Shown: positions 27,627-51,911 of the stretch, piece after piece
How the letters are laid out: each line of letters starts with the position of its first letter
Numbering within the stretch: position 1 is the stretch's first letter
Origin: an uncultured Roseiarcus sp.
Lineage (GTDB): Bacteria; Pseudomonadota; Alphaproteobacteria; Rhizobiales; Beijerinckiaceae
DNA: 64,000 bases
Assembly (NCBI GenBank): GCA_945957375.1
Contig: CAMFKX010000001.1
Location: 1 to 64,000 of the forward strand
Direction: 5' to 3'
Translations under genes and position numbers: made by a program
Notes under the pieces: model-generated
The model's database searches: none
What the model saw: the letters and a program-made list of their open reading frames with translations, nothing else
Told to the model about the DNA's origin: nothing

Positions 27627-28625
27627 TCAGCGCCGTCGCATCGTCAGAAGGCCGGCGCTGAACAGCGCGATGATCAGCAGGACGCCCTGGACGATATATT
27701 GCCAATAGGTCGGGACCCCCATGATCGACAGGCCGTTGTTGATGATCCCGATCAGCATCACGCCGATGAAAGTGCCGATGATGTGAAACTTGCCCGGCCG
27801 CAAGGACGAGGCGCCGATGAAGACGGCCGCAAACGCATTGAGCAGGTAGGTGTCGCCCACGCCCTGAGGTCGGCCGGCGCCAAGAACCGACGCAGCCATC
27901 AGGCCGCCAAGCGCCGCGCAAACGGCGCAGATCGACAATGCGATCGGCGCGTATCGCTTGACCGCGATGCCGGACAAGCGCGAAGCCTCGGCGCTGCCGC
28001 CGATCGCGTACAAATGGCGGCCCAACTGGGTGTGCTCGAGCACCAGCCACAAGAGGACGCCGATCGCCAGCATGATCAGGATCGGATTCGAAACGCCAAA
28101 CACCGAGCCCTGTCCGATGATCAGGAATTCATCGGGAATGCCGGTAATGATGGTCTTCGAGTTCGAGATGCCCAACATCGCGCCGGTGATGATGGATCCG
28201 GTCGCCAGGGTGGCGATGAACGCCGAAATCCCGAGATAGCTGACGATAAGGCCGTTGAACACGCCGATGACCGCTGCGATCGCCAGCGAAATGAGAACCG
28301 CGACGGGCACGCTGATCGTGTCAGGATACTGAACGAGCAGAAACGTTGCGACATAGCCGCCGAGCGTGGCCATCGCCGCGATCGAAAGGTCGAACAGCCC
28401 CATCACGAGGCACACCGTGAGGCCGAAGGCCATCGTGCCCAGGATCGAAACCTGGTTCATGATGTTGAGCAGGTTGTCGACTGTCGGGAAGACGTCCGAA
28501 CGCGCGAACGAGAAGATAATCAGGAGGAGAGCGAGCGACGCGAGCGTGCCAAAGCGGGCGAGCCACGCCGGCAGGTCAAAGCCTGGCTTGCGCTCGGAAC
28601 CTTTCAGCTCGATACTAGCGCTCAT
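27627..28625 (-). CDS. ABC transporter permease, RbsC/sugar-type
   Basis: MGLFDLSIAAMATLGGYVA; GASSLRPGKFHIIGTFIGVMLIGIINNGL. Confidence 0.9.
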   Translation of the reverse strand: MSASIELKGSERKPGFDLPAWLARFGTLASLALLLIIFSFARSDVFPTVDNLLNIMNQVSILGTMAFGLTVCLVMGLFDLSIAAMATLGGYVATFLLVQYPDTISVPVAVLISLAIAAVIGVFNGLIVSYLGISAFIATLATGSIITGAMLGISNSKTIITGIPDEFLIIGQGSVFGVSNPILIMLAIGVLLWLVLEHTQLGRHLYAIGGSAEASRLSGIAVKRYAPIALSICAVCAALGGLMAASVLGAGRPQGVGDTYLLNAFAAVFIGASSLRPGKFHIIGTFIGVMLIGIINNGLSIMGVPTYWQYIVQGVLLIIALFSAGLLTMRRR

Positions 28626-30195
28626 CTTCGTCTCCGACGGCCAAATGCATGATGTTCGCCTCCGTAGCGGTTGCGCCGGATAATTCGCCGACGACAACTC
28701 CGTCACGGAAAATGATGACGCGATGGCAGACGCGCGGGAACTCCTCGACCTCCGTCGAGGTGAAGATCACGGCCGCGCCGGAAGCGGCGATCTCGCGGAT
28801 GAGATTGTAGATATCCGCCTTTGCGCCGATGTCGACTGCGGCCGTTGGCGAATTCAGCATGAAGATCTTCGCGCCGCTGGCGAGCCAGCGACCCAGAATC
28901 GCCTTTTGCTGGTTGCCGCCGCTGAGCGAGTCGATCGACGATTCGATGCCGGGCATCTTGATCGCCAATTTGGCGGCGACTCCCTGACTTTCTGCGCGCT
29001 CCCGGCCCCGGCGGATAAATCGGGCGAAAGGATCGGAGACAAAGCGGTCGAGATTGGGAAGCGAGATGTTTTCCCGCACGCTCGCTCCGGAGAGGAGACT
29101 CTCCGTGTGTCGGTTCTTTGGCACGAGCGCGATGCCCGCGGTCTTGGCGTCGCGAGGCGAGCGAAGCGTCAACGGCTTTCCATGCACCGTCAAATGGCCG
29201 CCCGCGACCGCCGAGCGGCCGAACAGAAGGTCGAGAGCCTCCTCGGCGCCGCTTCCCGGCAATCCGGCGAAGCCAAGGATCTCGCCGGAGCGCAATTCGA
29301 AGGTCAGATCCCGAACCTTTCCGCCCGCCAGGGCGGCGGCGGCGAAGACGGATTCGCCGTAGGCGATCCGACTGACGTCGGTCTCCTCGATCCACGGCTT
29401 GTCGCCGCCGACAATGGCCTTGATGATGGCCTTGCGCGACATCTCCTCGCGCGTCCAGGCGCCGGCTCTCCGGCCGTCCCTGAGCACGGTCACGCGATCG
29501 GCGATTTCGAAGACTTCCGTCAAACGATGGCTCACATAGAGGAACGAGTGGCCCTCGGTGGCCAGGCGGCGCATGTGTCCGAACAGGATCGATACTTCCG
29601 CCGGCAAGAGCGCCGAGGTCGGCTCGTCAAGAATGACGATCCGCGCGTCGCTGCCGATCGCCTTTGCGATGGCGACCATGGCGCTCTCGTCGGGTCTGAG
29701 CTTGCTGACTTCGGTCCATGGATCGATGTTGAGCCCGACGCGCTCCAGAAGCTTCTTCGCGCGCCGTCCGATGACGCTCCAATTGACGAACACCCCCATC
29801 CGACGCGGCAGCGTCTGGGACAAGAACAGGTTTTCCGCCACCGACAGCTGAGGCACCAGATTGAAGTGCTGATGCACGACCGCGATGCCGAGATCTTGAG
29901 CCTCTTGCGGCGAGTTCAGTTCTACCGGTCGCCCGTCGATAAATATCTGTCCGGCGGTCGGCCGGCTCGCGCCGCAGATCGATCGGATCAGCGTCGATTT
30001 GCCTGCGCCGTTCTCGCCGAGCAGCGCATGAATCTCCCCCTGACGGATCTCGATATCGACGCCGTCGAGGGCGCGGGTGCCCGGGTACTCCTTGACGAGC
30101 CCCTTGACCTCGAGAACCACCCCGGGGCGCTCGCGAGCGTTTGAGGTCGCCTCGTCGCGCGTTGGCGAGGCGACCCCGACCTTATTCGAAGACAC
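28615..30195 (-). CDS. ABC transporter ATP-binding protein, tandem NBD (RbsA/MglA-type)
   Basis: GENGAGKSTLIRSICG; LSGGNQQKAILGRWLASG. Confidence 0.95.
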   Translation of the reverse strand: MSSNKVGVASPTRDEATSNARERPGVVLEVKGLVKEYPGTRALDGVDIEIRQGEIHALLGENGAGKSTLIRSICGASRPTAGQIFIDGRPVELNSPQEAQDLGIAVVHQHFNLVPQLSVAENLFLSQTLPRRMGVFVNWSVIGRRAKKLLERVGLNIDPWTEVSKLRPDESAMVAIAKAIGSDARIVILDEPTSALLPAEVSILFGHMRRLATEGHSFLYVSHRLTEVFEIADRVTVLRDGRRAGAWTREEMSRKAIIKAIVGGDKPWIEETDVSRIAYGESVFAAAALAGGKVRDLTFELRSGEILGFAGLPGSGAEEALDLLFGRSAVAGGHLTVHGKPLTLRSPRDAKTAGIALVPKNRHTESLLSGASVRENISLPNLDRFVSDPFARFIRRGRERAESQGVAAKLAIKMPGIESSIDSLSGGNQQKAILGRWLASGAKIFMLNSPTAAVDIGAKADIYNLIREIAASGAAVIFTSTEVEEFPRVCHRVIIFRDGVVVGELSGATATEANIMHLAVGDEDER

Positions 30196-30227
30196 GGTCT
30201 GATCCCGCTGTCTTCATTTTGCGGCCC

Positions 30228-31217
30228 TCACTTCTTTCCGACGTCAGCCGAATAGAGCGCGCAGGTCTTGAAGTCGGGCAACTGGCCCTTGGGCGGCACA
30301 GTGTCCTTGGTGATCATGCAGGGCTTCTTGAAAATCTGGCGCTCCGCAAAGGTCTTGCCGTCGACCGATTCCGCAACCGCCTCGACCGCCTGGACGCCCA
30401 TGCCGCGAACGTCATAGGCGATTGTCAGGATCAGCGGCGTGCCGTCCCGGATCAGATCATACGCTGCGTCATTGCCGTCCATGCTGACCACGAAGGGCTT
30501 CTGCTCGAGGTGGGACTGCTGCACGGCGCGGGCGGCGGCGACGCCGACCTCATCCCAGCCCATCCAGATCGCCTTCACGTTCTTGTGGCCGGTCAGGTAG
30601 TCGGTGATCTTGTTGAAGGAGTCGTCGACCTGACCCGGGACCTTGATTTCCATCTCGGTCACCTTGATCTTCTTGTATTCGTTCATGACGGCGTGAAAGC
30701 CGGCGTCGCGTTCCTGCAGCGCCGGGAGCACGGTCCAGTTCATCTTCAGCACTTCGCCTTCGCCGTTGATGCGCGCAGCCAGTTCCGAAGCGGAAAACAC
30801 GCCGTCGGCGACATTGTTCGAGCCGATGTCCACCGTGATGCCCGGCACCATGCCCGAGAACGTCGAGACAAACGGAATCTTGGCCTTGGCGGCGTTGGCG
30901 ATCACGCCGCCCATCTGATTGTTGTCGGAGGCGATATTGATCAGCGCGTCGAACCCGCGGGTGATGAAGGTGTTGGCCTGGTTGTTGGTCGCGACCTGAT
31001 CGCCGTTGCCGTCATAGGTCTCGACCGTCCAGCCGCGCGCTTTGGCGGCTTCGGTCGCCGATTCAATCATCGTGTGGATCGTGGGGGACGCCCCGTTCAC
31101 CGAGAAAATTGCGACCTTGAGCGGTCCCTTGGACTTGTCCGCCGCCCAGGTCGAGCCCGCGGTGAGCGCCAGCATCGACGTCGCCAACGCGAAACCGGCC
31201 ATCTTGATTGAAGTCAT
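30228..31217 (-). CDS. Periplasmic sugar-type substrate-binding protein
   Basis: Signal peptide; FDALINIASDNNQMGGVIANAAKAKIPFVSTFSG; adjacent to transporter genes. Confidence 0.88.
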   Translation of the reverse strand: MTSIKMAGFALATSMLALTAGSTWAADKSKGPLKVAIFSVNGASPTIHTMIESATEAAKARGWTVETYDGNGDQVATNNQANTFITRGFDALINIASDNNQMGGVIANAAKAKIPFVSTFSGMVPGITVDIGSNNVADGVFSASELAARINGEGEVLKMNWTVLPALQERDAGFHAVMNEYKKIKVTEMEIKVPGQVDDSFNKITDYLTGHKNVKAIWMGWDEVGVAAARAVQQSHLEQKPFVVSMDGNDAAYDLIRDGTPLILTIAYDVRGMGVQAVEAVAESVDGKTFAERQIFKKPCMITKDTVPPKGQLPDFKTCALYSADVGKK

Positions 31218-34659: not shown

Positions 34660-35904
34660 ATGCGGGAAACCTGCATCGTCGGCGTCGGCATGACCCGCTT
34701 CGGCCGCTTCCTCGAGCGCTCGCTCGGCGATCTCGCCGCCGAGGCGGCGCGCGACGCGCTCGCCGACGCCGGCGCAGCTCCGGGGCTTGCGCAGGCGATC
34801 GTGTTCGCCAACGCGACCCAGGGGGCGCTCGAGGGGCAGCACGGGATCCGCGGCCAGGCCGCGCTCGACGGCTGCGGATTTGGCAACGCCCCGGTGATCA
34901 ACGTCGAGAACGCTTGCGCCTCCGCGACGACCGCCCTGAACCTCGCGCATGTTCTCGTCGGCTCCGGCGCATACGACTGCGTTCTGGCGATCGGCGCGGA
35001 AAAGATGGTCATGACCGACCCTGCGAGGTCGATGGCCGCCTTCGAAGGCAGCTGGGACCTTTCACGCCGCGAGGAGACGATCGCCGGGCTTTTGGCTATG
35101 GGCCACGGCGTCGCGCCGCCGCCGAACGCCGAACCGGAAGGCCCTCATAGTGTGTTCATGGATGTCTACGCCGCCTTCTGCCGCCACCACATGGCCAGGT
35201 TCGGCACGACCCAGCGTCAGATGGCGGCGGTCAGCGCCAAGAATCACAAACAGTCGGTCGAGAACACGCGCGCCCAATACCGGCGCGCGTTCACGGTCGA
35301 CGAGGTGATGGCGGCGCGGCCGATCGTCTGGCCGCTCACGCTGCCGATGTGCAGCCCGATCAGCGACGGCGCGGCGGCGGCGCTGGTGTGCGCGCCGGAG
35401 GTCGCCCAAAGGCTCGGGAACGCCGACCGCGCCGCGCGGATCCGCGCCAGCGTCCTCATGTCCGGCGACCATCGCGATCCGGACCGGCTCGAAGACCATG
35501 TCGCGCGCAAGGCCGCGCGCCGGGCGTACGACCTCGCCGGGCTCGGGCCCGAAGACGTCGACGTCGTCGAGTGCCACGACGCGACCGCGTTCGGCGAAAT
35601 CCTGCAAAGCGAGATGCTCGGCTTCTTCGGCTTCGGCGACGGCGGTCCCGCCGCCGAACGCGGCGACACCGCTCTCGGAGGCCGGATTCCGTTCAACCCC
35701 TCGGGCGGCCTCGAATCGAAGGGTCATCCGATCGGCGCGACCGGACTCGGACAGATTTTCGAAATCGTCACGCAATTGCGCGGAGAGGCTGGCTCCAGGC
35801 AGGTCGGGGGCGCCCGCATCGGCCTTGTGGAGAATGGCGGCGGCCTGCGCGGAGTCGAGGAAGCCGCCGTCGCGATCACGATCCTGGAGCGGGCGCGCCG
35901 ATGA
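34660..35904 (+). CDS. SCP-x/thiolase-like acyltransferase
   Basis: VENACASATTALNLA; NPSGGLESKGHPIGATG. Confidence 0.9.
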   Translation: MRETCIVGVGMTRFGRFLERSLGDLAAEAARDALADAGAAPGLAQAIVFANATQGALEGQHGIRGQAALDGCGFGNAPVINVENACASATTALNLAHVLVGSGAYDCVLAIGAEKMVMTDPARSMAAFEGSWDLSRREETIAGLLAMGHGVAPPPNAEPEGPHSVFMDVYAAFCRHHMARFGTTQRQMAAVSAKNHKQSVENTRAQYRRAFTVDEVMAARPIVWPLTLPMCSPISDGAAAALVCAPEVAQRLGNADRAARIRASVLMSGDHRDPDRLEDHVARKAARRAYDLAGLGPEDVDVVECHDATAFGEILQSEMLGFFGFGDGGPAAERGDTALGGRIPFNPSGGLESKGHPIGATGLGQIFEIVTQLRGEAGSRQVGGARIGLVENGGGLRGVEEAAVAITILERARR

Positions 35905-37418
35905 ACCTTGCGCTCCTGCTGGACGCCGCGGCGCGAAGTTTCCCGCGCATGCCGGCGCTCTCGGTCGCCGACCGACCGATCTACGACTATGCGGCCTATG
36001 GGGCGCTCGCCGCGCGTCTGGCCGGCGGCCTCGAGGCGCTCGCCCTTGCGCCGGGCGACCGGGTCGTGCTGGCGATGACCAACAACGCCGAATATCTGGC
36101 CGCCCTGTTCGCGATCTGGCGCGCCGGGCTCGTGGCCGCGCCGGCCAACGCCAAATTGCACGCCCGCGAGATCGCCTTCATGGCCGCCGACTGCGCAGCG
36201 AAGCTGTGCCTCGCGACGCCCGATCTCGCCGAGGGGCTTGCCCGCGAACTCGCGCCGCCGACCCGTCTCGTCGTGCTGGGAGACGACGACTGGCGCCGAA
36301 TGGCGCAGGCCGAGCCGGGCCGGATCGCCGCCTCTAGAGGCGACGACCTCGCCTGGCTCTTCTACACCAGCGGCACCACCGGCCGCCCGAAGGGCGCGAT
36401 GCTCAGCCATCGCAATCTGATGACGATGGCGACGCTCTATCTTGCCGACGTCGACGCGCTCGCCCCGGGCGACACCCACCTTCACCTCGCGGCGCAATCG
36501 CACGCGACGGGCCTGTTCGGCCTTTCCCACATCGCCAAGGCGACCCATCAGGTTCTGCCCGCGAGCGGCGGCTTCTCGCCCGGCGAACTCGCCGACCTCC
36601 TCCGGCTGCATGCGCGCGCGAGCTTCTTCGTGCCGCCGACCGGCCTCAGGCGGATGCTGCGCGATCCCGCATTCCGCGACGCCCCGCTCGAAAACATCCG
36701 CACCGTGCTGCTCGGCGCGGCCCCGGTCTACGCGGCCGATCTGAAGGCGGGGTACGCGGCGCTCGGGCCGCGGCTGTGGAACGGCTACGGCCAGGGCGAA
36801 AGCCCTTGCACCATCACCGCAATGCCGAAGAGCCTGCTGGCTGCGGCGATCGCCGCCGGCGACGAGGCGCGGATGGTGAGCGTCGGGCTGGCGCGGACCG
36901 GTATCGAGGTCGCCGTCGTCGATCCCGACGACCGACCGCTGCCGCCAGGGGAAGTCGGCGAAGTGGCGGTGCGCGGCGACACCGTGATGGCGGGCTACTG
37001 GAACCTGCCGGAAGCGACGGCGACGGCGCTGCGCGGCGGCTGGCTGCACACCGGCGATCTCGGCGCGCTGGACGCCGAGGGCTTCCTGAGCCTGCTCGAC
37101 CGGTCCAAAGACCTCGTCATCTCCGGCGGCTCCAACATCTATCCGCGCGAAATCGAAGACGTGCTGCTCGAACACCCCTCGGTCGCCGAAGCGGCCGTCA
37201 TCGGCGCGCCGGATCCCGAATGGGGCGAGAGCGTCGTCGCGTTCGTCGTGCCGCTTGACGGTCGCATCGACGTCGCCGCGCTCGACGCCCTCTGCCTGCA
37301 GCGGATCGCGCGATACAAGCGACCCAAGCACTGGCGGGTGGTCGACAGTCTGCCGAAGAACGGCGCCGGCAAGGTGCTGAAGCGCGCGTTGCGGGAGCTT
37401 TACGAAACCGCAGACTGA
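35901..37418 (+). CDS. AMP-dependent acyl-CoA ligase
   Basis: FYTSGTTGRPKGAMLSHRN; ATGA overlap with upstream CDS. Confidence 0.94.
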   Translation: MNLALLLDAAARSFPRMPALSVADRPIYDYAAYGALAARLAGGLEALALAPGDRVVLAMTNNAEYLAALFAIWRAGLVAAPANAKLHAREIAFMAADCAAKLCLATPDLAEGLARELAPPTRLVVLGDDDWRRMAQAEPGRIAASRGDDLAWLFYTSGTTGRPKGAMLSHRNLMTMATLYLADVDALAPGDTHLHLAAQSHATGLFGLSHIAKATHQVLPASGGFSPGELADLLRLHARASFFVPPTGLRRMLRDPAFRDAPLENIRTVLLGAAPVYAADLKAGYAALGPRLWNGYGQGESPCTITAMPKSLLAAAIAAGDEARMVSVGLARTGIEVAVVDPDDRPLPPGEVGEVAVRGDTVMAGYWNLPEATATALRGGWLHTGDLGALDAEGFLSLLDRSKDLVISGGSNIYPREIEDVLLEHPSVAEAAVIGAPDPEWGESVVAFVVPLDGRIDVAALDALCLQRIARYKRPKHWRVVDSLPKNGAGKVLKRALRELYETAD

Positions 37419-37425
37419 CGGGCTT

Positions 37426-37558: not shown

Positions 37559-38302
37559 GTGGCCAAGCTTCTCGTGGACAACGACAAGTACGCCGAACCG
37601 AACACGTCGGTCGTGGTGGACGCTTACCACGCGGCGATCCACGACCTGATTCGGCGCAAGCTCGATGACGTGGGCGGCGACTGGGCCAGCTTCGTGTTCG
37701 ACAAATCCTACGACCTGGTCACGGCCGCTGAATTCGCGGCGATCGAAAAGCGGCTCCTGGCGACCGGCCACCGCTTCGACTGGTCGGCGATGATCTCGGT
37801 GCGCGAGCGCCCCGAGGCCTACAAGCCCGCGACCGGCCTTGGCGAGGACATCAAGACCTTCTCCTTCGAGCACCCGGACGCCGTCGTCGCGCCGGCCGAC
37901 GAAAACGGCCGCGAACAGCGTGGAATTGGCGACAACGTCGTCAAGCTCTCGACCAATCTGGTCGGCATCGCGCGCTACATCCGATCGAGCGATCGTGTGC
38001 TCGACCTTCTGACGTCCGGCGTTCCCGCCGATACCGTCGCGGTGATCGACGACAGCGGCGGCACGCTGACCGCTCCGATCCTCGAACAATTCAAGGGCGT
38101 GATCTGCGCCGGCGGCACGGTGCGCTCGCACCTCGGCATCCTCACTCGCGAATACGGCATTCCCTGTCTGATGAATGCGAAAATCAGCGGCATCCGGGAG
38201 GGCGACCGCGTGGAAATCGAATCCACCGCCGCCGCCAAGACCGCCGAAGCCTACCAGACCGGCGTGGAGATGACCGCCAGGATTTGGCGGCTCGCCAAAT
38301 AA
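37559..38302 (+). CDS. Stand-alone PEP-utilizing-enzyme mobile (His swivel) domain protein
   Basis: DTVAVIDDSGGTLTAPILEQFKGVICAGGTVRSHLGILTREYGIPCLMNAKISGIREGDRVEIE. Confidence 0.87.
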   Translation: MAKLLVDNDKYAEPNTSVVVDAYHAAIHDLIRRKLDDVGGDWASFVFDKSYDLVTAAEFAAIEKRLLATGHRFDWSAMISVRERPEAYKPATGLGEDIKTFSFEHPDAVVAPADENGREQRGIGDNVVKLSTNLVGIARYIRSSDRVLDLLTSGVPADTVAVIDDSGGTLTAPILEQFKGVICAGGTVRSHLGILTREYGIPCLMNAKISGIREGDRVEIESTAAAKTAEAYQTGVEMTARIWRLAK

Positions 38303-38339: not shown

Positions 38340-39899
38340 ATGGGATCGAGCCGCATCAGCTATTCGCAGCTTCTCGAGACCAATAATCTCATCCAGGCCA
38401 ACGCCGATGAGACCTATTGGCTCTGCGTGACGCGCACCGTTCAGGAATCGAAACTGTTTCCCGTGCCGGCCTACATGATGCTGTCCTACATGATGGCCTA
38501 CTACCGCTATCCCTCGCTCTTGCGCAAAATCGAGCAGAGCCTGTCGGCGGAGGAGATCGGCGACCGGGCGCGCAACGCCGGCATCAAGATCCAGAATCCC
38601 TCGATGGGATGGGCGCTGCCGGGGTTCTATCTGCTCGGGCGCGAGTGGCTGATCTCGCTGGGCCTGATCCGGCCGCAGGACGCCCTCGAAGACCTGGTCT
38701 ACCTGATGGACTTCTGGAAGCGCTTCCAGCTGTCGTGGCACCGCAACAACGGCCACATCACCAACAAGGAATTCGGACATCGCGGCCAGTTCCTGCCGGA
38801 ACGGACGGTGCAGGTCTTTCACGCCGACATGTACGACTGCAAGCAGGGCGACGACCTGCACGAGGCGGCGCAGGCCTTCATGGCCGCGGCGTCGCAGTAC
38901 GGCTTCCTGATCTCCTGCGAGAGCCGCATCAGCCTGCACAATTCCGGTCCGTACAAGATCGCCGAAGATCGCGAAATGATCGTGCGCGATTTCATGGACC
39001 TCTCGGAGAGCGATTTCCCGTGGCTGGACGGCGTCGCGGCCGACGTGCCTTACAACAACATCACCGTGACGATGGCGGTGAAGGACTGCCACTTCTACCT
39101 GGTGGACGACTGGGGCAGCTTCGAGTCGAAGCCCGAGTTCACCGCGGACAAGCTCGTCGGGGTCGGCCTCTACACCTCGGACACGCTCTCGGATGGCTAC
39201 GTGCCGGTGGCGATGGGCTCGCGCGAGGAACTGACCGCCTGCTTCAAGAACCTGACCGAGAAGGTGAAGGACGCCACCAACAAGCTCTGGCGCCGGCTCG
39301 CCGGCTGGTCGCGCGACCAGATGATCGACGCCGGCGCGATCACCTACTTCTCGATCGTCAAGGACCTCGCTCATGTCGCCGGCGTCTACGACGTCGACGA
39401 CTGGATGATGGTCGACGAGCGCGCCGAGCGCTTCCGACCGCTGTTCAACGACGAGTACAGCCGCGACGCGCTGGTCGGCCTGTGCATCGGCACGCACACC
39501 TCGCATCGCCTGAGCGAATACACGATGATGCAGCACTCGAACGGACCGCAGCGCCTCTATTCGCTGATCCCCTATTCCGTCCTGCAGGGCGACAGCTACA
39601 CGACGTCGTGCGGACCGGTCTATCCGGGAACGAGCCACCTGCCTGCGAAGGTCGACCGCTACAATACCACCCGCGGAATCATCGGCCTCGAAGAGTACAA
39701 CCGGCTTGCGCGCGAGGTGCGGCCGCCTGCGCTCGACCCGAAATACCGTCACCTTTGCGAGACGTGGGTCAAATACCACGCGGGCGAACCGCTCGCGGAC
39801 GAGCTCTACAAGATCGAGCAGGCGAACTCGCGCCTTCTGCGAGGCAAGGGCTCCGGCCTTCGGCGCGCGGATGTCGAGAAGCTCCGGAACGTGCGCTGA
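38340..39899 (+). CDS. Uncharacterised ~520-aa protein, paralog of 11387-12955
   Basis: Good RBS (GGGGAG), conserved paralog, no domain recognised. Confidence 0.88.
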   Translation: MGSSRISYSQLLETNNLIQANADETYWLCVTRTVQESKLFPVPAYMMLSYMMAYYRYPSLLRKIEQSLSAEEIGDRARNAGIKIQNPSMGWALPGFYLLGREWLISLGLIRPQDALEDLVYLMDFWKRFQLSWHRNNGHITNKEFGHRGQFLPERTVQVFHADMYDCKQGDDLHEAAQAFMAAASQYGFLISCESRISLHNSGPYKIAEDREMIVRDFMDLSESDFPWLDGVAADVPYNNITVTMAVKDCHFYLVDDWGSFESKPEFTADKLVGVGLYTSDTLSDGYVPVAMGSREELTACFKNLTEKVKDATNKLWRRLAGWSRDQMIDAGAITYFSIVKDLAHVAGVYDVDDWMMVDERAERFRPLFNDEYSRDALVGLCIGTHTSHRLSEYTMMQHSNGPQRLYSLIPYSVLQGDSYTTSCGPVYPGTSHLPAKVDRYNTTRGIIGLEEYNRLAREVRPPALDPKYRHLCETWVKYHAGEPLADELYKIEQANSRLLRGKGSGLRRADVEKLRNVR

Positions 39900-39917
39900 T
39901 CTCGAGGGGCGAGCGCC

Positions 39918-41429
39918 ATGCAGATCGGCAGTCTGATACGTCGCGCCGCTGTTCACTTTGGCGACGCTCCGTGTCTTGTCGAAGGGGACCGGGTCGTCTC
40001 CTTCCGCGAGTTCGACCGCTTGACTGACCGGCTTGGAAACGCGCTGCTCGAAGCGGGTTTCACGCCCGGCGATCGCATCGGCGTGCTGTTGCCCAACGGG
40101 ATCGATTGTCTCGTCGCCTATTACGCGCTGGCCAAGTCGGGCCTGGTGCGGGTCGGCATGAATACCCGGGAGACGATCGCCAACCACGCCTTCAAACTTG
40201 CCGATAGCGGCAGCCGCGGCGTGATCCATGACATGACCGATCCGATCGCCATCGCGCGGCTCGGCGTCGAGCGGGCGATCGGCGCGCAGGAGCTCGTCGC
40301 GCTCGGCGCGGCCGGATCGGAAACGCCCTGCGCGGTCGATCGGGCTCTCGATGCCCCCTATCGCCTCGGCTACACGGGCGGGACGACGGGGCGTTCAAAG
40401 GCGGTGACGCTGACCACGCGCGGCGAGCTTTCGGAGCTTTCCGCCTTTCTCACCGACCTCACGCCCGACCTGCGGCGCGGCGAGACTTTCCTGCACGCGG
40501 CGCCCATCGCTCACGCTTCGGGGGCGTTTTTCCTGCCCTCGCTGGTCCGCGGGGTCCGCTCGCTGGTTATGTCCAAGTTCGACCCGGCGGGGTTCATCGC
40601 CATCGCGTCCCGCGAGCAATGCGAGCACACGTTCCTCGTCCCCACCATGCTTGCGATGATCCTCGAAGCGGACGGAATCGACGGCGCGACCTTTGCGCTG
40701 CGGACGATCGCCTACGGCGCCTCGCCGATGGCGCCCGCCCTGTTGAATCGGGCGGAGAAGCGGTTCGGCCGCGTCTTTGCGCAGAGCTACGGCCAGGCCG
40801 AGAGTCCGATGGTGATCACCTGCCTCAAGCCGGAGGACCATGACCGCATCGGCTCGTGCGGACGCCCCTTCACCATCGTCGACGTCGCCGTCTTCGACGA
40901 GAACGACAAGCCGCTGGGGCCTGGCGAGCGCGGCGAGATCGTCTGCCGCGGCCCGCAAACGATGGCCTACTACTGGAACAATCCCGAGGCGACGGAGACA
41001 GCGTTCCGCAACGGCTGGCTGCACACCGGCGACATCGGCTACCAGGACGCCGACGGCTTCTTCTACCTGGTCGACCGCAAGAACGACATGTTGATATCGG
41101 GCGGCTACAACGTCTATCCGCGCGAGGTCGAGGACGTTCTGCTCGCCTGCGAAGGGGTCGTCGAAGCCGCTGTCGTCGGCCTGCCGGACGAGAAATGGGG
41201 CGACCGGGTGTTCGCCGTCGTCTCGGGCCGGCCGGGCCTCGACCCCGAGCGCGTCCTCGCTCATGCGCGCGAGAGACTGGCCAGCTACAAACGCCCCAAA
41301 GGCGTCGAGATCTGGCCGGAACTGCCGAAGACCTCCGCCAACAAGATCCTGCGCCGCGCCGTGAAAGATCAGCTCGTCGAGCGGGCGAGACACGAAGCCG
41401 CTGGGGCCCATGAGGAGACGCCAACGTGA
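39918..41429 (+). CDS. AMP-dependent acyl-CoA ligase
   Basis: GYTGGTTGRSKAVTLT; YLVDRKNDMLISGGYNVYPREVEDVL. Confidence 0.93.
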   Translation: MQIGSLIRRAAVHFGDAPCLVEGDRVVSFREFDRLTDRLGNALLEAGFTPGDRIGVLLPNGIDCLVAYYALAKSGLVRVGMNTRETIANHAFKLADSGSRGVIHDMTDPIAIARLGVERAIGAQELVALGAAGSETPCAVDRALDAPYRLGYTGGTTGRSKAVTLTTRGELSELSAFLTDLTPDLRRGETFLHAAPIAHASGAFFLPSLVRGVRSLVMSKFDPAGFIAIASREQCEHTFLVPTMLAMILEADGIDGATFALRTIAYGASPMAPALLNRAEKRFGRVFAQSYGQAESPMVITCLKPEDHDRIGSCGRPFTIVDVAVFDENDKPLGPGERGEIVCRGPQTMAYYWNNPEATETAFRNGWLHTGDIGYQDADGFFYLVDRKNDMLISGGYNVYPREVEDVLLACEGVVEAAVVGLPDEKWGDRVFAVVSGRPGLDPERVLAHARERLASYKRPKGVEIWPELPKTSANKILRRAVKDQLVERARHEAAGAHEETPT

Positions 41430-42028
41430 ACGACATGCATCTGGTCATGCACGGGCTCGCCATCAAGAAACACGCGACGCCCGAGGACATCGCGAGCGGG
41501 ATCGGACTTGACCTCGGCTCGGTGCGCGAAACGCTGGAAAAGCTCGTCGCCGCGCGCCGCGTCGTGGAAGCCAAGGGCCGGTATCTCCTTGCGCCGGCGG
41601 CCCGCATGCTGCTCGACGCCGACTATTCGCGCTATTACGAATCCGTTCGCGCAGACCCCGCGTTCCAGGCCGGCTACGCCGGCTTCGAGCGGCTCAATGC
41701 GACCCTGAAACAGCTCATCACCGATTGGCAGACCACCACCGTGCGCGGCCAGCGCGTGTCGAACGACCACAGCGACAAGGACTACGACGCCAAGATCATC
41801 GACCGCCTCGGCGACCTGCACGAGCGTTCGGAGGAGCCGCTGGGGAAACTCGCCGCCGCCCTGCCTCGCCTGGCGATCTATCGCGACAAGCTCGAGGCGG
41901 CGCTGGACAAGGTCGAGAAGGGGTCGATCGCCTGGGTCAGCGACGCCAAGATCGAGAGCTATCATACGGTCTGGTACGAATTGCACGAAGACCTTCTGCG
42001 CCTGATGCGCCGCGAACGCACCGAATAG
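41426..42028 (+). CDS. ~200-aa protein with HTH-like N-terminus, unknown C-terminal domain
   Basis: 4-bp ATGA overlap with 39918-41429; HATPEDIASGIGLDLGSVRETLEKLVAARRVVEAKGRYLLAP resembles a winged-HTH. Confidence 0.8.
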   Translation: MNDMHLVMHGLAIKKHATPEDIASGIGLDLGSVRETLEKLVAARRVVEAKGRYLLAPAARMLLDADYSRYYESVRADPAFQAGYAGFERLNATLKQLITDWQTTTVRGQRVSNDHSDKDYDAKIIDRLGDLHERSEEPLGKLAAALPRLAIYRDKLEAALDKVEKGSIAWVSDAKIESYHTVWYELHEDLLRLMRRERTE

Positions 42029-42039
42029 CGGCGACAGAG

Positions 42040-43824
42040 ATGACCCACGCCTTCGGACAATGGACGCTCGGACTCGAAGGCGGCGAACCGCCGTCGCGCG
42101 ACTTGATCGGCGGCAAGGCCTGGTCGGTCGCGCGCATGCAAGCGCTCGGCCTGAGCGTGCCGGCGGCCTTTGTCGTGACAACCGCGGCGTGCAGGGCCTT
42201 CCTCGCCTCCGGTAACGAGCCGCCCGGCCTCGAAGCGGAAATCGACGACGGCGTTCGCTGGCTGGAGGCGAAGACCGGGCGCGCTTTCGGCCGCGGGCCG
42301 CATCCGCTGCTCGTGTCGGTGCGCTCGGGGGCGCCGGTCTCCATGCCCGGCATGATGGACACGGTGCTCAATCTCGGCACGAACGACGTGACCGAGGCGG
42401 CGCTGGCCGCCGAGTGCGGCGATCCGGCCTTCGCGCGGAACACCCACAAGCGGTTTCTCGACCTCTATTCGCATATCGTGCTGCGCGCGACGGCGCCCCT
42501 GTTCGATGAGACCAAGAGCCCTGCGGAGTGGCGCGCCGCGATCGCTGCGGATTGCGGCGTCGAGGCCCCGAGCGACGTGCGCGAGCAATTGCGCAGGGCG
42601 GTCAGGGCGGTGTTCGAGTCGTGGAACTCGCGCCGGGCCCGCCGTTATCGACAGCATCACGACATTCCGGACGACCTTGGCACCGCCGTCACCGTGCAGG
42701 CGATGGTGTTCGGCAATCTTGACGCGCGGTCTGGCACGGGCGTGCTGTTCTCGCGTAACCCGACGACCGGCGCCCGCGAGCCCTATGGAGAATATCTGCC
42801 CAGGGCGCAGGGCGAAGATGTCGTCTCCGGGAAGTTCACGCCCGAGCCCCTGTCAACGCTCGGAACGCAGATGCCGGAAGCGCTCGACGGCCTGCTGAAG
42901 GCTGCGCACATGCTCGAACAGGTCGGGCGCGACGCGCAGGACATCGAGTTCACGGTCGAGCGCGGCAAGCTCTATTTCCTTCAGTCGCGTCCGGCCAAGC
43001 TCGCGCCGCACGCGGCCGCGCACATTGCGGTCGACCTCGCGCGCGAGGGGCTGATCGACGAGAGGGCGGCGGTGATGCGCCTCTCGCCCGACCAGGTGCG
43101 AATCCTGCTCAGCCCGCATGTTCGCGAGGGCGGACTGGAGAACGCGCATCTGCTGGCTTCCGGCGAGCCTGCCTCGCCGGGCGTCGGCATAGGTTTGGTC
43201 GTGACGGATTCCGACGAGGCCGAGCGTCGGGCGCACGGCGGCGAAGCGGTCGTCCTCATGCGGCCGACCACCAGTCCGGAAGACCTTCACGGAATGATCG
43301 CGGCGCGCGCCGTCGTCACCGAACAGGGCGGCAGCACCTCGCATGCCGCCGTCGTCGGACGCGCGCTGGGGATTCCGTGCGTCGTCGGCTGCGGAAAGGG
43401 CGCGCTCGACTCGCTCGCCGGTCGCACGGTGACCGTCGACGGCGGGTCGGGCAAGATCTACTCGGGCGCGCTCGAAATCGAGGCGCCGGACGAGGCCGAC
43501 CACGAAGCCCTGGCGCAGTTGACGGTCTGGGCCGCGAGGTTTTCGCCGCTTCGCGTCGTTTCGCCGTCCGCGCCCGAGGCCGCCGCGGCGGCGGATCTGA
43601 CCGCCAACGACGACGCGGCCAACCCCGAGAAGATCGGGGAGGTGCTTCGGGATTTGAAGGGCGCGCGCGGCGCGCGCGGAGGCATTCTCGCTTCCGACGA
43701 GGGCGTGCGCGCGGCTCTTAAGGCCGGACTCGAATTCATCGTGGCCGATCCGGTTCTGCCGCCTCTGCTTGCCGCCGTCCGCGCGACTGAAGCCGGGGTC
43801 TCCATCGAGGTCGAGGACAAATGA
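42040..43824 (+). CDS. Truncated pyruvate-phosphate-dikinase-like protein (ATP-grasp + His swivel; no PEP/pyruvate barrel)
   Basis: LLVSVRSGAPVSMPGMMDTVLNLGTND; EPYGEYLPRAQGEDVVSGKFTPEPL; QDIEFTVERGKLYFLQSR; GGSTSHAAVVGRALGIPCVVG. Confidence 0.92.
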   Translation: MTHAFGQWTLGLEGGEPPSRDLIGGKAWSVARMQALGLSVPAAFVVTTAACRAFLASGNEPPGLEAEIDDGVRWLEAKTGRAFGRGPHPLLVSVRSGAPVSMPGMMDTVLNLGTNDVTEAALAAECGDPAFARNTHKRFLDLYSHIVLRATAPLFDETKSPAEWRAAIAADCGVEAPSDVREQLRRAVRAVFESWNSRRARRYRQHHDIPDDLGTAVTVQAMVFGNLDARSGTGVLFSRNPTTGAREPYGEYLPRAQGEDVVSGKFTPEPLSTLGTQMPEALDGLLKAAHMLEQVGRDAQDIEFTVERGKLYFLQSRPAKLAPHAAAHIAVDLAREGLIDERAAVMRLSPDQVRILLSPHVREGGLENAHLLASGEPASPGVGIGLVVTDSDEAERRAHGGEAVVLMRPTTSPEDLHGMIAARAVVTEQGGSTSHAAVVGRALGIPCVVGCGKGALDSLAGRTVTVDGGSGKIYSGALEIEAPDEADHEALAQLTVWAARFSPLRVVSPSAPEAAAAADLTANDDAANPEKIGEVLRDLKGARGARGGILASDEGVRAALKAGLEFIVADPVLPPLLAAVRATEAGVSIEVEDK

Positions 43825-44312
43825 GCGACATCAAGCCCAGAGACATCGAGGCGCTTCTGGAAACCTTCGAGGCTTCCGACTGGAGCGAAATGAAGCTCAA
43901 GATCGACGGCCTCGAGATGTTTGTGTCCAAGTCGCCCGACGGGCGCCCTGCGTCCGGTCCCGGCGACTGCGCAACCCCGGCAGCGCCGCTTGTCGCGTCG
44001 TCCGCGTCGACGCCCGCCCTGTCGCCCGCCGCGGTCGGCGTGACGCGGGCAGGCGCGCCCCCCGACCATTGGATCACGGTGCGCGCGCCAAACCTCGGCA
44101 CATTCTATCGCTCGCCGAAGCCGGGCGCTCCGCCCTACGTCAAGATTGGCCAGCACGTCGACTCGGACGACGAAGTCTGCCTGATCGAAGTGATGAAACT
44201 GTTCACCACCGTGCTCGCAGGCGCCTCGGGAGTCGTTCGTCAGGTGTTGGTCGAGGACGCCGAGCTCGTCGAATTCGATCAGGCGCTCTTTCTGTTAGAA
44301 CCCGCCGCCTGA
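43821..44312 (+). CDS. Biotin carboxyl carrier protein (AccB-like)
   Basis: Biotinylation motif CLIEVMKLFTTV; Pro/Ala linker; ATGA overlap upstream. Confidence 0.93.
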   Translation: MSDIKPRDIEALLETFEASDWSEMKLKIDGLEMFVSKSPDGRPASGPGDCATPAAPLVASSASTPALSPAAVGVTRAGAPPDHWITVRAPNLGTFYRSPKPGAPPYVKIGQHVDSDDEVCLIEVMKLFTTVLAGASGVVRQVLVEDAELVEFDQALFLLEPAA

Positions 44313-44313
44313 G

Positions 44314-45681
44314 ATGCCCCTCAGCCGAGTCCTCGTCGCCAACCGGGGCGAAATCGCCCTGCGCATCGTGCGCGCAGCAAAGAGCCTCGGCGTGGAGACG
44401 GTGCTCGCGGCGTCGGTTGCGGATCGGGAAAGTCTCGCGGCGCGGGAGGCGGACCGCGTGGTGACGCTCGGCCCCGCGCCGGCGCGCGCCTCTTATCTCG
44501 ACGCCAATCTTGTCGTGCATGCCGCGAAGGCCACAGGCTGCGACGCCCTGCATCCGGGCTATGGTTTTCTGTCCGAACGCGCTGCGCTCGCCAGGCTTTG
44601 CGAGGATCACGGCATCGCCTTCGTGGGTCCGGCCTCCGCCTCGATCGAGGCGGTCGGCGACAAGCTCGCCGCCCGCCGTCTCGCCAAGAGCGCGGGCGTG
44701 CCGATGACGCCGGGCAGCGCGAAGCTGGCAAGCGCCCAGGAAGCCGTCGCCTTCGCGTCGGAGGTCGGATTTCCGGTCGTCACCAAGGCTTCGGCCGGCG
44801 GCGGCGGGCGCGGAATGGTTGTCGCACGCGACGCGAAGTCGCTCGCCGCCGGTTTCGAGCGCGCCTCCACCGAAGCCAAGGAAGCCTTCGGCGACGGCAC
44901 GCTCTACCTCGAGCGCTACGTTGAGCGCGCGCGCCATGTCGAAGTGCAGGTGCTGGGCCTCGGCGACGGCCGCGTGCTGCATTTCGGCGAGCGCGACTGC
45001 TCGATGCAGCGCCGCTATCAGAAGATGATCGAAGAGGCGCCCGCGGCCGCGATGCCCAACGCGACGCGGGCGCGCCTGCACAAGGCGGCCGTCGAACTCC
45101 TGTCGTCGATCCGCTACCGCAACGCCGGGACGGTCGAGTTCCTGTACGACGTCGAGCGCGACGACTTCTATTTCATGGAGGTCAACGCGCGCATCCAGGT
45201 CGAGCATCCGGTCTCGGAGATGACGTCCGGCGTCGATCTGGTCAAACTTCAACTCGAAGTCGCCGGAGGCGTGTTGCCGCCGGTCACGCAGCGCGACATC
45301 GTTCCGCACGGCCACGCAATCGAGGCGCGCATCCTTGCCGAGGATCCCCGGCGCGGCTTCCTGCCGTGCCCCGGACGCGTCACCCGATGGCGGCCGCCCC
45401 ACGGCGAAGGCGTTCGGATCGACACGGCGATCGAAGAAGGCACGCTCGTTCCGCCTTACTACGACAGCATGATCGCCAAGCTGATCGTGCACGCGCCCGA
45501 TAGGCCGCACGCGGTCCGGCGTTTGCGCGATGCGCTGGACGCGTTCGAAATCGAGGGCGTGGCGACGAATATCGAGTTGCTGCGCGCCGTCGCCGCGCAT
45601 CCCGACTTTTTCGAGAACCGCCTGGACACGCGCTGGCTCGAGACCGTTTTCCTTCCGCATTACGGCCAGCAAGAGGGGTAG
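44314..45681 (+). CDS. Biotin carboxylase (AccC-like)
   Basis: VLVANRGEIALRIVRAAKSLG, ALHPGYGFLSERAAL, KASAGGGGRGMVVA, FMEVNARIQVEHPVSEM. Confidence 0.95.
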   Translation: MPLSRVLVANRGEIALRIVRAAKSLGVETVLAASVADRESLAAREADRVVTLGPAPARASYLDANLVVHAAKATGCDALHPGYGFLSERAALARLCEDHGIAFVGPASASIEAVGDKLAARRLAKSAGVPMTPGSAKLASAQEAVAFASEVGFPVVTKASAGGGGRGMVVARDAKSLAAGFERASTEAKEAFGDGTLYLERYVERARHVEVQVLGLGDGRVLHFGERDCSMQRRYQKMIEEAPAAAMPNATRARLHKAAVELLSSIRYRNAGTVEFLYDVERDDFYFMEVNARIQVEHPVSEMTSGVDLVKLQLEVAGGVLPPVTQRDIVPHGHAIEARILAEDPRRGFLPCPGRVTRWRPPHGEGVRIDTAIEEGTLVPPYYDSMIAKLIVHAPDRPHAVRRLRDALDAFEIEGVATNIELLRAVAAHPDFFENRLDTRWLETVFLPHYGQQEG

Positions 45682-45683
45682 TT

Positions 45684-47147
45684 ATGGCCCATATCGAATT
45701 TCTCGACGAGACAATGCGCGACGGCCAGCAGAGTCTCTGGGGCATGCGCATGCAGGCCGGCATGGCGCTGCCGGTGGCGCCGCTGATCGACCGCAGCGGT
45801 TTCCGCGTCATCGATCTCGCCGGCTCGTCGCTGTTCGAGGTGATGATCCGCACCTGTCGGGAAAATCCCTGGGAGGGGCTCGACCTGCTCGTTCAGGCGA
45901 TGCCGCGCACCCGCATCCGCGGCGGCATGCGCTCGAACGCGTCCGTCACATTCGGCGTGACGCCGGATTCTCTGATGGACGCGTGGATGCGCCAGCTCAA
46001 CCGACACGGCTGCCGCAGCTTCTGGATCTATGACGTCCTGTTCAACATCGACAAGATGCACCGCCTCGCCAAGGTCGCGAAGGAGTTCGGCTCGGAGGTC
46101 GCCGGCGCGATCATGTTCGCGCTGTCCCCCGTTCACACCGACGCCTACTACGCCGACAAGGCCGACAAGCTTTCGGCTTCGCCCGACATCGACACGCTGC
46201 TGCTCTACGACACCGCCGGAGTGCTGGACAAGGAAAGGCTGCAGACGCTTGTGCCGGCCATCAAGGCCAGCGCACGCGGCAAGCCGATCGAATTTCACGC
46301 CAACAACATCCTTGGCCAGTCCGCAAAGGCCTATCTCGACGCCATCGATCTCGGCGTGTCGATCCTGCATACGGCGAGCCGTCCCATGGCGAACGGCCCG
46401 TCGGTGCCTTCGACCGAGATCATGCTTCACAACGTCGAACTGCTGGGCCACACCCACAGCATCGACAAGTCGCTGCTGCCGCCGGTCGCCGAGCATTTCG
46501 AGAAGGTCGGGAAGGCTGCAGGATTTCTCGTCAACCAGCACAACGAATACGACGTGCTGTCGATCCGTCATCAGATTCCGGGAGGCATGACCGGGACGCT
46601 GAAGGCGCAGCTCGCGCAGCACAACATGACCGACAAGCTCGACGAGGTGCTGCGCGAGACCGCCGAGGTCCGTCGCGACCTCGGCTATCCCGGCATGGCG
46701 ACTCCGTTCAGCCAGCTTGTCGGTATCCAGGCCGTGCTCAACGTCGTCACCGGCGAGCGCTACAGCATCGTCCCGGACGAGGTGATCCAGTACGCCGCAG
46801 GCTTCTATGGAGAGACGGTCGCGCCGATCGATCCCAACGTGCTGGACAAGATCATGAGTTCGCCGCGGGCGAGGCCAGTGGTCGCGAACCCGCCCGAGCA
46901 GCCGACCATCGAGGAGCTGCGCAAGCGCTACGGGACAGACAACGACGACGAGCTCATCCTGCGCGCGTTGGTTCCCGAGCCGGACCTCGAGAAGATGCGA
47001 GCGGCCGGTGCGGTCAAGCGCGATTATCCGACCCTCTCGTCGCCGGAGCTCGAGCAGGTGCAGAAGCTGATGCGCGCAGCCCGGTCGCCGGTCGTGCAGC
47101 TGCGCACGGCGACGATGTCGCTGGAACTCCATCGCCAGGCCGGCTAG
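45684..47147 (+). CDS. PycB/OadA-like carboxyltransferase with divergent active site
   Basis: EFLDETMRDGQQSLWGMRM; TPFSQLVGIQAVLNV; biotin carboxylase and BCCP adjacent. Confidence 0.88.
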   Translation: MAHIEFLDETMRDGQQSLWGMRMQAGMALPVAPLIDRSGFRVIDLAGSSLFEVMIRTCRENPWEGLDLLVQAMPRTRIRGGMRSNASVTFGVTPDSLMDAWMRQLNRHGCRSFWIYDVLFNIDKMHRLAKVAKEFGSEVAGAIMFALSPVHTDAYYADKADKLSASPDIDTLLLYDTAGVLDKERLQTLVPAIKASARGKPIEFHANNILGQSAKAYLDAIDLGVSILHTASRPMANGPSVPSTEIMLHNVELLGHTHSIDKSLLPPVAEHFEKVGKAAGFLVNQHNEYDVLSIRHQIPGGMTGTLKAQLAQHNMTDKLDEVLRETAEVRRDLGYPGMATPFSQLVGIQAVLNVVTGERYSIVPDEVIQYAAGFYGETVAPIDPNVLDKIMSSPRARPVVANPPEQPTIEELRKRYGTDNDDELILRALVPEPDLEKMRAAGAVKRDYPTLSSPELEQVQKLMRAARSPVVQLRTATMSLELHRQAG

Positions 47148-47163
47148 GTCCGAGGACAACGCC

Positions 47164-48357
47164 ATGCGCAGAGCCGTCATGGTCGATGTCGTGCGGTCGC
47201 CATTCGGGCGCGGCCGGGCAGGCGGCGCGCTGTCGACATTGCACCCGGTCGACCTTTACGCCGCGGTGTTGCGAGCCCTGATCGCCCGAACCGGCGTCGA
47301 CCCGGCGTTGATCGAGGACGTGATCACCGGCTGCGTCATCCAGGTGGCCGAGCAGTCGGGCAACATTGGGCGGCAGGCCGTCCTTGCAGCCGGGCTTCCC
47401 GAGAGCGTGCCGGCCGTCACGCTCGACCGCAAGTGCGGTTCCGCGCAGCAGGCGGTCGACTTCGCGGCGCAGGGCGTCATCGCAGGCGCCTACGACTGCG
47501 TGATCGCCGGAGGCGTGGAGATGATGAGTCTCGTGCCGATGAAGATCAACCGCATGGGGAAGGACAATGAGGGCCCCCTGTTTCATCGACGCTATCCAGA
47601 CGGCATGGTGCGACAGGGAATCTCGGCCGAGTTGATCGCGGCGCGCTGGAGCGTCGGCCGAGATGAGATGGACGCCTTCGCCCTGGACTCGCACAGGCGC
47701 GCGCTCGCGGCCGAGGACGCGGGCGTCACGCAGCGCGCCCTGGCGCCTGTCGAGGCGCCGCTGCCGGATGGGGGCTTTGTGCGCGTGGAGCGCGACGAGG
47801 GTCCGCGGCGCGACACCTCGCTCGAAAGGCTCGCCTCGTTGAAGCCCGCCTTCGAGGACCCGGCGGCCGCGGCGCGCTTTCCGCAGATCCGCTGGAGCGT
47901 CACCGCGGGCAATGCGAGCCAGGTCACCGACGGCTCCTCGGCCATTCTGATCGCCGAGGAGGCCTTCGCGCTCCGGCACGGCCTGAAGCCGCGCGCGGCG
48001 ATCACCCATTTCGCAGTCGCGGGCGATGATCCGATCCTGATGCTGACCGCGGTCATTCCGGCGACGCGCAAGCTTCTTCAGCGAGCCGGGCTCGGGATCG
48101 ACCGGATCGACGCCTTCGAAGTCAACGAAGCCTTCGCTTCGGTCGTGCTCGCCTGGATGCGCGAGACCGGCGCCGATCCGGCGCGGGTCAACCCCTATGG
48201 CGGCGCCATCGCGCTCGGTCATCCCGTCGGGGCCTCGGGCGGCCGTCTGCTTGCGAATCTGCTTGCGCGGCTCGAAGAGAGCGGCGGCCGCTACGGCCTC
48301 CAGACGATGTGCGAGTCCGGCGGCATGGCGAACGCGACGCTGATCGAGCGGCTTTGA
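47164..48357 (+). CDS. Thiolase (acetyl-CoA C-acyltransferase)
   Basis: VTLDRKCGSAQQAV active Cys; NPYGGAIALGHPVGASG; CESGGMANATL. Confidence 0.94.
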   Translation: MRRAVMVDVVRSPFGRGRAGGALSTLHPVDLYAAVLRALIARTGVDPALIEDVITGCVIQVAEQSGNIGRQAVLAAGLPESVPAVTLDRKCGSAQQAVDFAAQGVIAGAYDCVIAGGVEMMSLVPMKINRMGKDNEGPLFHRRYPDGMVRQGISAELIAARWSVGRDEMDAFALDSHRRALAAEDAGVTQRALAPVEAPLPDGGFVRVERDEGPRRDTSLERLASLKPAFEDPAAAARFPQIRWSVTAGNASQVTDGSSAILIAEEAFALRHGLKPRAAITHFAVAGDDPILMLTAVIPATRKLLQRAGLGIDRIDAFEVNEAFASVVLAWMRETGADPARVNPYGGAIALGHPVGASGGRLLANLLARLEESGGRYGLQTMCESGGMANATLIERL

Positions 48358-51128: not shown

Positions 51129-51911
51129 ATGGACCGGGTGAAAGGCAAGATTGCGCTCATCACAGGTGCGGGAACCGGCGTCGGTCGGGCGTGCATGAAA
51201 TTGTTTGCGCAGGAAGGCGCAAAGGTCGTCGGCGTCTCGCGCACGCAGAGCAATCTCGACGAAACGCTCGCCCAGGTGAAGGCGGCCGGCGGCGAGGGCG
51301 CGGTCGTCGCGGCGGATCTTGCAACCTCCGCCGGCGCGGAAAAGGCGGTCGCTGCGGCGCTCGCGGCGTACGGCCGGATCGACATTCTCGTCAATTGCGC
51401 CGGCGTCGGCTATTCCTGGCTGGACAAGAGCCCGGGTTCGATGGGGCCGGTCGACGACACGACCCCCGAGAAGTGGGCCGAGGTGATGGCGATCAATCTC
51501 GACTCGCTCTTTCACATGTGCCGGCTGACGATCCCGCAGATGAAGAAGCAGGGCGGCGGCGCGATCGTCAACGTGACCAGCATTTCCGGCATCCAGGGCC
51601 TCCCCGTCGCCCACACCTACACCGCGGCCAAGGGCGGCGCGATCAATCTCACCCGCTCGATCGCGATCACCTATTGCGACGACAACATCCGTTGCAATTG
51701 CATCGCGCCCGGCTTCATCGCCACGCCGATGGTCGCCTCCGTGCTCGGCATGTTCGACGACCCGCAGATGGCCGATCGCCTGACGCCGATGAAGCGGCCG
51801 GGCACGCCGGAAGAGATGGCCTACGCCTGCCTCTATCTCGGCTCGGACGAGTCGACCTATTGCCAGGGCGCGGTTCTGGTCGTGGACGGCGGCACGACGG
51901 CGCGGCAGTAG
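51129..51911 (+). CDS. SDR family oxidoreductase
   Basis: TGAGTGVG, NCAGVGYSW, YTAAKGG; RBS GGGAGG. Confidence 0.93.
   Translation: MDRVKGKIALITGAGTGVGRACMKLFAQEGAKVVGVSRTQSNLDETLAQVKAAGGEGAVVAADLATSAGAEKAVAAALAAYGRIDILVNCAGVGYSWLDKSPGSMGPVDDTTPEKWAEVMAINLDSLFHMCRLTIPQMKKQGGGAIVNVTSISGIQGLPVAHTYTAAKGGAINLTRSIAITYCDDNIRCNCIAPGFIATPMVASVLGMFDDPQMADRLTPMKRPGTPEEMAYACLYLGSDESTYCQGAVLVVDGGTTARQ

Follow-up and report, generated by a model that had tools for sequence, protein, structure and literature searches.

A PPDK-type protein without the PEP/pyruvate barrel: candidate ATP-side subunit of a four-component small-molecule dikinase beside a biotin-dependent carboxylase

Genes and domains at the locus

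The 64-kb window, by which we mean the whole stretch of DNA analysed here, carries an apparent operon extending from about 34660 to 48357, in which genes for an SCP2-type thiolase, a CoA ligase, a stand-alone swivel (swivel247), a 519-residue protein (p519), a further CoA ligase and a 200-residue protein (p200) lead up to a gene for a PPDK-type protein of 594 residues (PPDK594), followed in turn by those for a biotin carboxyl carrier protein, a biotin carboxylase, a carboxyltransferase and a thiolase (Table 1). On translation PPDK594 begins with ATG and runs without an internal stop, its start codon lying 11 nt beyond the stop codon of the upstream gene, which ends at 42028.

Table 1. Positions of the features in the window, with the roles proposed for them
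Feature	Position	Strand
Y_phosphatase3 family phosphatase, proposed phosphate removal after carboxylation	6794..7564	-
p522, second p519 family member (522 aa), paired with swivelB	11387..12955	-
swivelB, second stand-alone swivel	12958..13662	-
Sugar-type ABC transporter: permease, ATPase, RbsB-like binding protein	27627..31217	-
SCP2-type thiolase-like protein, start of apparent operon	34660..35904	+
Second acyl-CoA ligase	35949..37418	+
swivel247, stand-alone PEP-utilizers swivel, His191 (RSHLxILxRE), proposed phosphocarrier	37559..38302	+
p519 (519 aa), proposed substrate/phosphoryl acceptor binding protein	38340..39899	+
AMP-forming acyl-CoA ligase	39918..41429	+
p200 (200 aa), winged-helix N-terminal part and helical part, proposed docking subunit	41426..42028	+
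Barrel-less PPDK (PPDK594), ATP-grasp and swivel with His435, proposed ATP-dependent phosphoryl donor	42040..43824	+
Biotin carboxyl carrier protein (BCCP), EVMKL biotin site	43821..44312	+
Biotin carboxylase (BC)	44314..45681	+
Carboxyltransferase (CT), pyruvate carboxylase/OadA type, altered metal site	45684..47147	+
Thiolase, proposed beta-ketoacyl-CoA cleavage	47164..48357	+
SDR dehydrogenase, type found beside kinase genes in 20/48 loci	51129..51911	+

The first-pass annotation had described PPDK594 as a protein with the ATP-grasp motifs and phospho-His swivel of a pyruvate, phosphate dikinase (PPDK) that ends behind the swivel with no C-terminal barrel, and this description is borne out. 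Pfam models recognise the ATP-grasp part (PF01326, PPDK_N, 2e-42) and the swivel (PF00391, PEP-utilizers, residues 402-471, 2.5e-23), and the model of the PEP/pyruvate barrel, PF02896, finds no match in the protein. Only residues 7-513 align with solved PPDKs (phmmer, E about 1e-121), in comparison with which the motifs GGK, SVRSGA, GEYL...AQGEDVV, QDiEFT and LQxR are retained, and the catalytic histidine of the swivel is His435 in GGSTSHAAV, which is kept in orthologs. Thus, of the parts that make up a PPDK (EC 2.7.9.1), the ATP-grasp with its nucleotide motifs and the swivel with its catalytic histidine are present and the C-terminal barrel is absent. Behind the swivel there is a weakly conserved tail of about 120 residues; the idea that this tail is a remnant of the last barrel unit was rejected, since most shuffle tests against the PPDK barrel were non-significant.

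Judged from its sequence, PPDK594 is a conserved family and neither a truncation artefact nor a broken gene, because there are 22 full orthologs of 569-603 aa with the identical layout. A canonical PPDK (41% identical to PPDK594), its barrel intact, is encoded on a different contig of the same genome, and PPDK594 is therefore not the housekeeping enzyme. Database names are of little help here. The NCBIfam equivalog NF004531 ('pyruvate, phosphate dikinase', PRK05878.1), a model of 534 positions, matches PPDK594 nearly end to end with 706 bits against a cut-off of 456 bits, but full-length PPDKs, at about 500-545 bits, exceed the cut-off too; the name is therefore unreliable for PPDK594, and the model was rejected as a proof of a barrel-less PPDK, the call being based instead on domain content and ORF length. 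As it takes in both full-length PPDKs and barrel-less proteins, annotations made with it mix functions, and members of the families discussed here at present go by the names 'pyruvate, phosphate dikinase', 'hypothetical protein' or 'MarR family transcriptional regulator'.

The histidine of swivel247 (His191) is invariant among 44 sequences of close relatives, and divergent stand-alone swivels have it as well; profile comparison matches swivel247 to the swivel of an HpeH-like (Hpe-type) protein with a probability of 93%. For p519 no significant sequence match was obtained in Pfam, NCBIfam or the PDB. Its AF2 model (pLDDT 88, pTM 0.90) gave nothing below E 1.8 in a Foldseek search of the PDB and weak rows only, with no confident PDB fold match, in VIA-align, and hhalign found no match between p519 and the HpeH-like protein. 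No kinship with the HpeH substrate domain or with a known fold was accordingly assumed, a missing match being no proof of a new fold. In p200, the C-terminal part is the best conserved, and the helical part contains an invariant SxHxxW...HE; from a second AF2 model only the p200 part was used, its p519 part being poor, and an alignment in which p519 and p200 rows were combined with a fusion (A3) was discarded as misaligned. The first-pass annotation had allowed for a PEP barrel hidden elsewhere in the operon. Among the operon products scanned with Pfam there is no PF02896 domain, the p519 model has a secondary structure unlike that of a TIM barrel, and the sole other protein of TIM-barrel type is the biotin carboxyltransferase.

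That carboxyltransferase is 37% identical to the CT of an Hpe-like cluster from Rhizobium and 28% identical to OadA. Of the metal site of pyruvate carboxylase (Asp, carbamylated Lys, HxH), it has the carbamylated lysine replaced by tyrosine and HxH by HxN, a change conserved in the main clade and not found in the Hpe-like CT. Roseiarcus fermentans DSM 24875 has a p519 that is 97% identical to the one described here. Elsewhere in the window p522 is 56% identical to p519, and the two swivel/p519 pairs of the window stand against a single close set of PPDK594 and p200 in the genome. A divergent quartet of PPDK, swivel, p519 and p200 genes lies on contig C239 of the same genome, adjoined by an ORF that, from our own reading of its sequence, we take to be HAD-like. 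Near the swivelB/p522 pair and the phosphatase there is a further sugar-type ABC transporter (118-4516, minus strand), and the window holds four genes of the acetoacetate decarboxylase family (5147-5932 on the plus strand; 7601-8332, 15500-16207 and 31887-32642 on the minus strand).

Linkage, fusions and the barrels of sister proteins

Searching 84,980 species genomes with p519 yielded 48 loci. The system as a whole extends over Alphaproteobacteria, Gammaproteobacteria and Actinomycetota, and Methylibium has divergent relatives of it. The swivel adjoins p519 in 45 of the 48, the p200 gene lies immediately 5' of the PPDK gene in every one of the 26 loci holding both, PPDK is followed by BCCP in 20 of 23, 26 of the 48 have a Y_phosphatase3 homolog in the vicinity of the kinase genes, and homologs of the sugar-type ABC transporter occur near the operon in 9-10 loci. 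When 16 genomes whose trio locus (swivel, p519 and p200) had no full linked copy of PPDK594 were searched, 12 proved to have a close ortholog elsewhere; one (G008) gave a partial match only and three (G005, G009, G016) none, possibly as a result of incomplete assemblies. Among 240 alphaproteobacteria drawn evenly, p200 occurs in six, our genome included, always next to a PPDK-type gene, and in the other five swivel and p519 are alongside. Where the trio sits elsewhere, PPDK594 stays beside the carboxylase genes (L087, L088, L090). Some trio loci have no linked carboxylase, and no CT, BC or BCCP gene was found beside the divergent quartets examined.

The components also occur fused. On pROB02 of Rhodococcus opacus B4, swivel, p519 and p200 form one chain of 793 aa, after its gene comes one for a tyrosine-type phosphatase, and a short PPDK is encoded about 7 kb away; p519 and p200 form a single ORF in four loci (L022, L046, L039, L112); and swivel-p519 fusions occur in R. 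oxybenzonivorans (pRB98) and R. pyridinivorans P23, both of which have a complete contiguous cluster including carboxylase and phosphatase, such that all parts, with the thiolase among them, can be found in one contiguous Rhodococcus cluster. On a plasmid of Methylibium petroleiphilum PM1 (L097, 9761-12650) the genes for a p519-like protein, a swivel and p200 (annotated as MarR) lie a few kb upstream of genes for a cobalamin-dependent mutase of the 2-hydroxyisobutyrate type. Hydantoinase A/B genes, of the acetone/acetophenone carboxylase superfamily, are found near the trio in five gammaproteobacterial loci (L017, L024, L026, L029, L047); a role for them as substitute for the biotin carboxylase was considered and dropped, as one such genome also has a biotin carboxylase beside PPDK594.

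The PPDKs of three divergent quartets (L085, L103, L104) retain a barrel, in which four or five of the six PEP-site positions compared have lost their residue. In the numbering of the Clostridium symbiosum enzyme, none of the three proteins keeps the equivalents of E745, N768, D769 and C831, and that of R561 is changed in two of them; R617 and the swivel histidine are retained. The seven full-length PPDKs compared keep all of these residues. In a tree built on the ATP-grasp and swivel region, a branch with 100/99 support separates 16 of 17 trio-linked PPDKs from the full-length PPDKs, and the dead-barrel and no-barrel subgroups are each well supported, the trio-linked PPDK of R. opacus being a long branch that could not be placed. 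Both the barrel decay and the tree pattern are what would be expected if the trio had taken over the role of phosphoryl acceptor from the barrel, as it probably did.

A putative kinase-carboxylase pathway and its alternatives

Given the domain content, catalytic motifs, gene adjacency, fusions, decayed sister barrels and tree, we consider it probable that PPDK594 serves as ATP-side subunit in a small-molecule dikinase of PPDK type that has four components and feeds the biotin carboxylase. The first-pass annotation had placed the phosphoryl acceptor in another protein or in a small molecule bound elsewhere, probably involving the stand-alone swivel or the 520-aa protein; adjacency, fusions and the loss of PEP-site residues in sister proteins support this, so that its interpretation appears largely right and can be made more precise, the comparative evidence adding p200, which it had not named. 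In the scheme that we infer, the phosphoryl group of ATP would pass to the swivel histidine of PPDK594, giving AMP as in PPDK, p200 would dock PPDK594 to the acceptor unit, and a His-to-His relay through the histidine of swivel247 would carry the phosphoryl group on to a substrate held by p519. The substrate is probably a ketone made from an alcohol, a conversion that the SDR could perform upstream of phosphorylation; the SDRs hint at the alcohol precursor, and the sugar-type ABC transporter near the operon at a polar compound. BCCP, BC and CT would then carboxylate the phosphorylated ketone at the carbon next to the carbonyl, the tyrosine-type phosphatase would strip the phosphate, and the resulting beta-keto acid would be activated by a CoA ligase and cleaved by a thiolase. 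The carboxylation part is suggested by the layout of carboxylase, ligase and phosphatase genes, which parallels that of the proven Hpe pathway, and by the contiguous Rhodococcus cluster.

Several observations go against this scheme. Two swivels with invariant histidines are unusual, HpeHI having one, and in the window the phosphatase gene is 35 kb from PPDK594. With two metal ligands gone and an identity of 37% to an Hpe-type CT, the CT may act on something other than an Hpe-like ketone, and since there are trio loci and divergent quartets without linked carboxylase, carboxylation is not the only possible context of the kinase. The occurrence of two swivel/p519 pairs with one close PPDK594 and p200 set could, more tentatively, point to a soluble phosphorelay resembling the PTS, in which PPDK594 and p200 would serve as common donor, the PPDK594 swivel histidine passing the phosphoryl group to the histidines of interchangeable stand-alone swivels and hence to several substrates, each swivel having as its partner a substrate-binding protein (p519, p522) whose fold is as yet unsolved.

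Other readings of the locus concern chiefly what is phosphorylated. The dikinase and trio might act on some other metabolite, such as a tertiary alcohol or a compound resembling a sugar, the carboxylase being a separate step of the same pathway. The sugar-type ABC transporters near the operon would suit such a substrate, as would the trios of Methylibium PM1 and R. opacus B4 and the divergent quartets, at which no biotin carboxylase is in view; this is nevertheless unlikely, for BCCP so regularly follows PPDK594 (the 20 of 23 loci mentioned) and PPDK594 keeps company with carboxylase genes even at the three loci where the trio lies elsewhere. A reaction modelled on the ATP-dependent acetone or acetophenone carboxylases, in which the dikinase would phosphorylate the enol oxygen of the ketone and the phosphate would leave during carboxylation, has the attraction of requiring no second hydroxyl on the substrate, and the altered metal site of the CT suggests an unusual formation of the enolate. 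Yet it would need no phosphatase, whereas a Y_phosphatase3 gene accompanies the trio in 26 of the 48 loci and a phosphatase gene follows the fused trio gene of R. opacus, and we rate this route as quite improbable.

Two further proposals concern the proteins themselves. The winged-helix part and conserved histidines of p200 are reminiscent of a transcription factor, which phosphorylation by the pair of swivel and PPDK might control in the manner of PTS-controlled regulators; but p200 is fused to p519 or swivel-p519 in several lineages, and it is the C-terminal part that is best conserved, which makes a regulator very improbable. That PPDK594 should still be a pyruvate, phosphate dikinase or a PEP synthase, borrowing a PEP barrel in trans, would agree with its NCBIfam equivalog name and its intact ATP-grasp and swivel, but is hardly credible when the operon products yield no such barrel, the sister proteins that have one have lost most of its PEP-site residues and the genome already possesses a canonical PPDK.

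If PPDK594 and the trio do form a four-component dikinase, a PPDK-derived branch would be added to the small-molecule dikinases, and it would illustrate how an enzyme of central metabolism could take on a new architecture through loss of its PEP site and recruitment of separate acceptor proteins. It would also provide concrete candidate genes for the degradation of alcohols and ketones through phosphorylation and biotin-dependent carboxylation.

Comparison with known dikinases and carboxylases

No description of the four-gene kinase was found in the open-access literature. PPDK itself has homologous ATP-grasp and swivel parts, of which the nucleotide-side motifs are kept here, but its barrel is absent from PPDK594 or mostly altered in the sister genes. 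Rifampin phosphotransferase (RPH) and related single-chain dikinases likewise combine ATP-grasp, swivel and a separate acceptor-binding part, in one chain as opposed to the separate proteins found here, and no match of p519 to RPH structures was seen. Phenylphosphate synthase (PpsAB) and 4-methylbenzyl phosphate synthase (CreHI) are also multi-protein dikinases with a small-molecule acceptor and a catalytic-His swivel; here, by contrast, there are four proteins, the ATP-grasp is of PPDK type and p519 has no detected relation to the HpeH-type substrate domain. In two-component dikinases (HpeHI, CreHI, PpsAB) the ATP-grasp protein is devoid of a swivel, whereas PPDK594 carries one; the catalytic-His swivel on the acceptor side has its equivalent in swivel247 with His191. 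With the CT of pyruvate carboxylase and oxaloacetate decarboxylase the carboxyltransferase shares a homologous barrel and PYC_OADA domain, from which the main clade departs by the substitution of the metal-site lysine by tyrosine and of the second metal histidine by asparagine.

The closest systems are Hpe (Rhodococcus rhodochrous GD02: HpeHI, HpeCBA, HpeD, HpeEF), Acv (Sphingobium SYK-6) and Xcc (Aromatoleum EbN1). In the Hpe pathway the two-component dikinase HpeHI phosphorylates 4-hydroxyacetophenone (PMC9618137, PMC12167813), HpeCBA carboxylates only the phosphorylated ketone (PMC9618137), and HpeD dephosphorylates the carboxylated product, a ligase and a hydrolase being proposed to finish (PMC9618137, PMC12167813); the logic of all three systems is to phosphorylate, carboxylate, dephosphorylate, activate with CoA and cleave (PMC9618137, PMC12167813). 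Related arrangements were also seen at other loci. On pRlBT01c of R. leguminosarum (L101, 246-10596) there is a complete Hpe/Acv-like cluster comprising two PEP-synthase-like kinase parts, BCCP, BC, CT, a HAD protein, an acetoacetate-CoA ligase and an amidohydrolase. On pBAR1 of S. bisphenolicum (L098) and a plasmid of P. putida YC-AE1 (L100), the place of the PEP-synthase-type kinase beside an Hpe-type biotin carboxylase and a HAD hydrolase is taken by a Tm-1-like ATP-binding protein, which may be a third kinase serving this strategy.

The present genes have in common with Hpe, Acv and Xcc a linked ATP-dependent dikinase, a three-gene biotin carboxylase, a phosphatase, a CoA ligase and enzymes for beta-keto acid cleavage, as well as a swivel with a catalytic-type histidine; the kinase genes are linked to those for BCCP, BC and CT, contiguously in R. 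oxybenzonivorans, and a phosphatase gene belongs to the cluster in the loci counted above. They differ in that the kinase is of PPDK type with its own swivel, accompanied by a separate swivel, p519 and p200, as against the RPH-like HpeHI, that thiolases take the place of the hydrolase, and that the phosphatase is of the Y_phosphatase3 family instead of a HAD protein (HpeD). The strategy proposed here is thus one already known from Hpe, Acv and Xcc, the architecture of the kinase and the family of the phosphatase being what sets the present genes apart.
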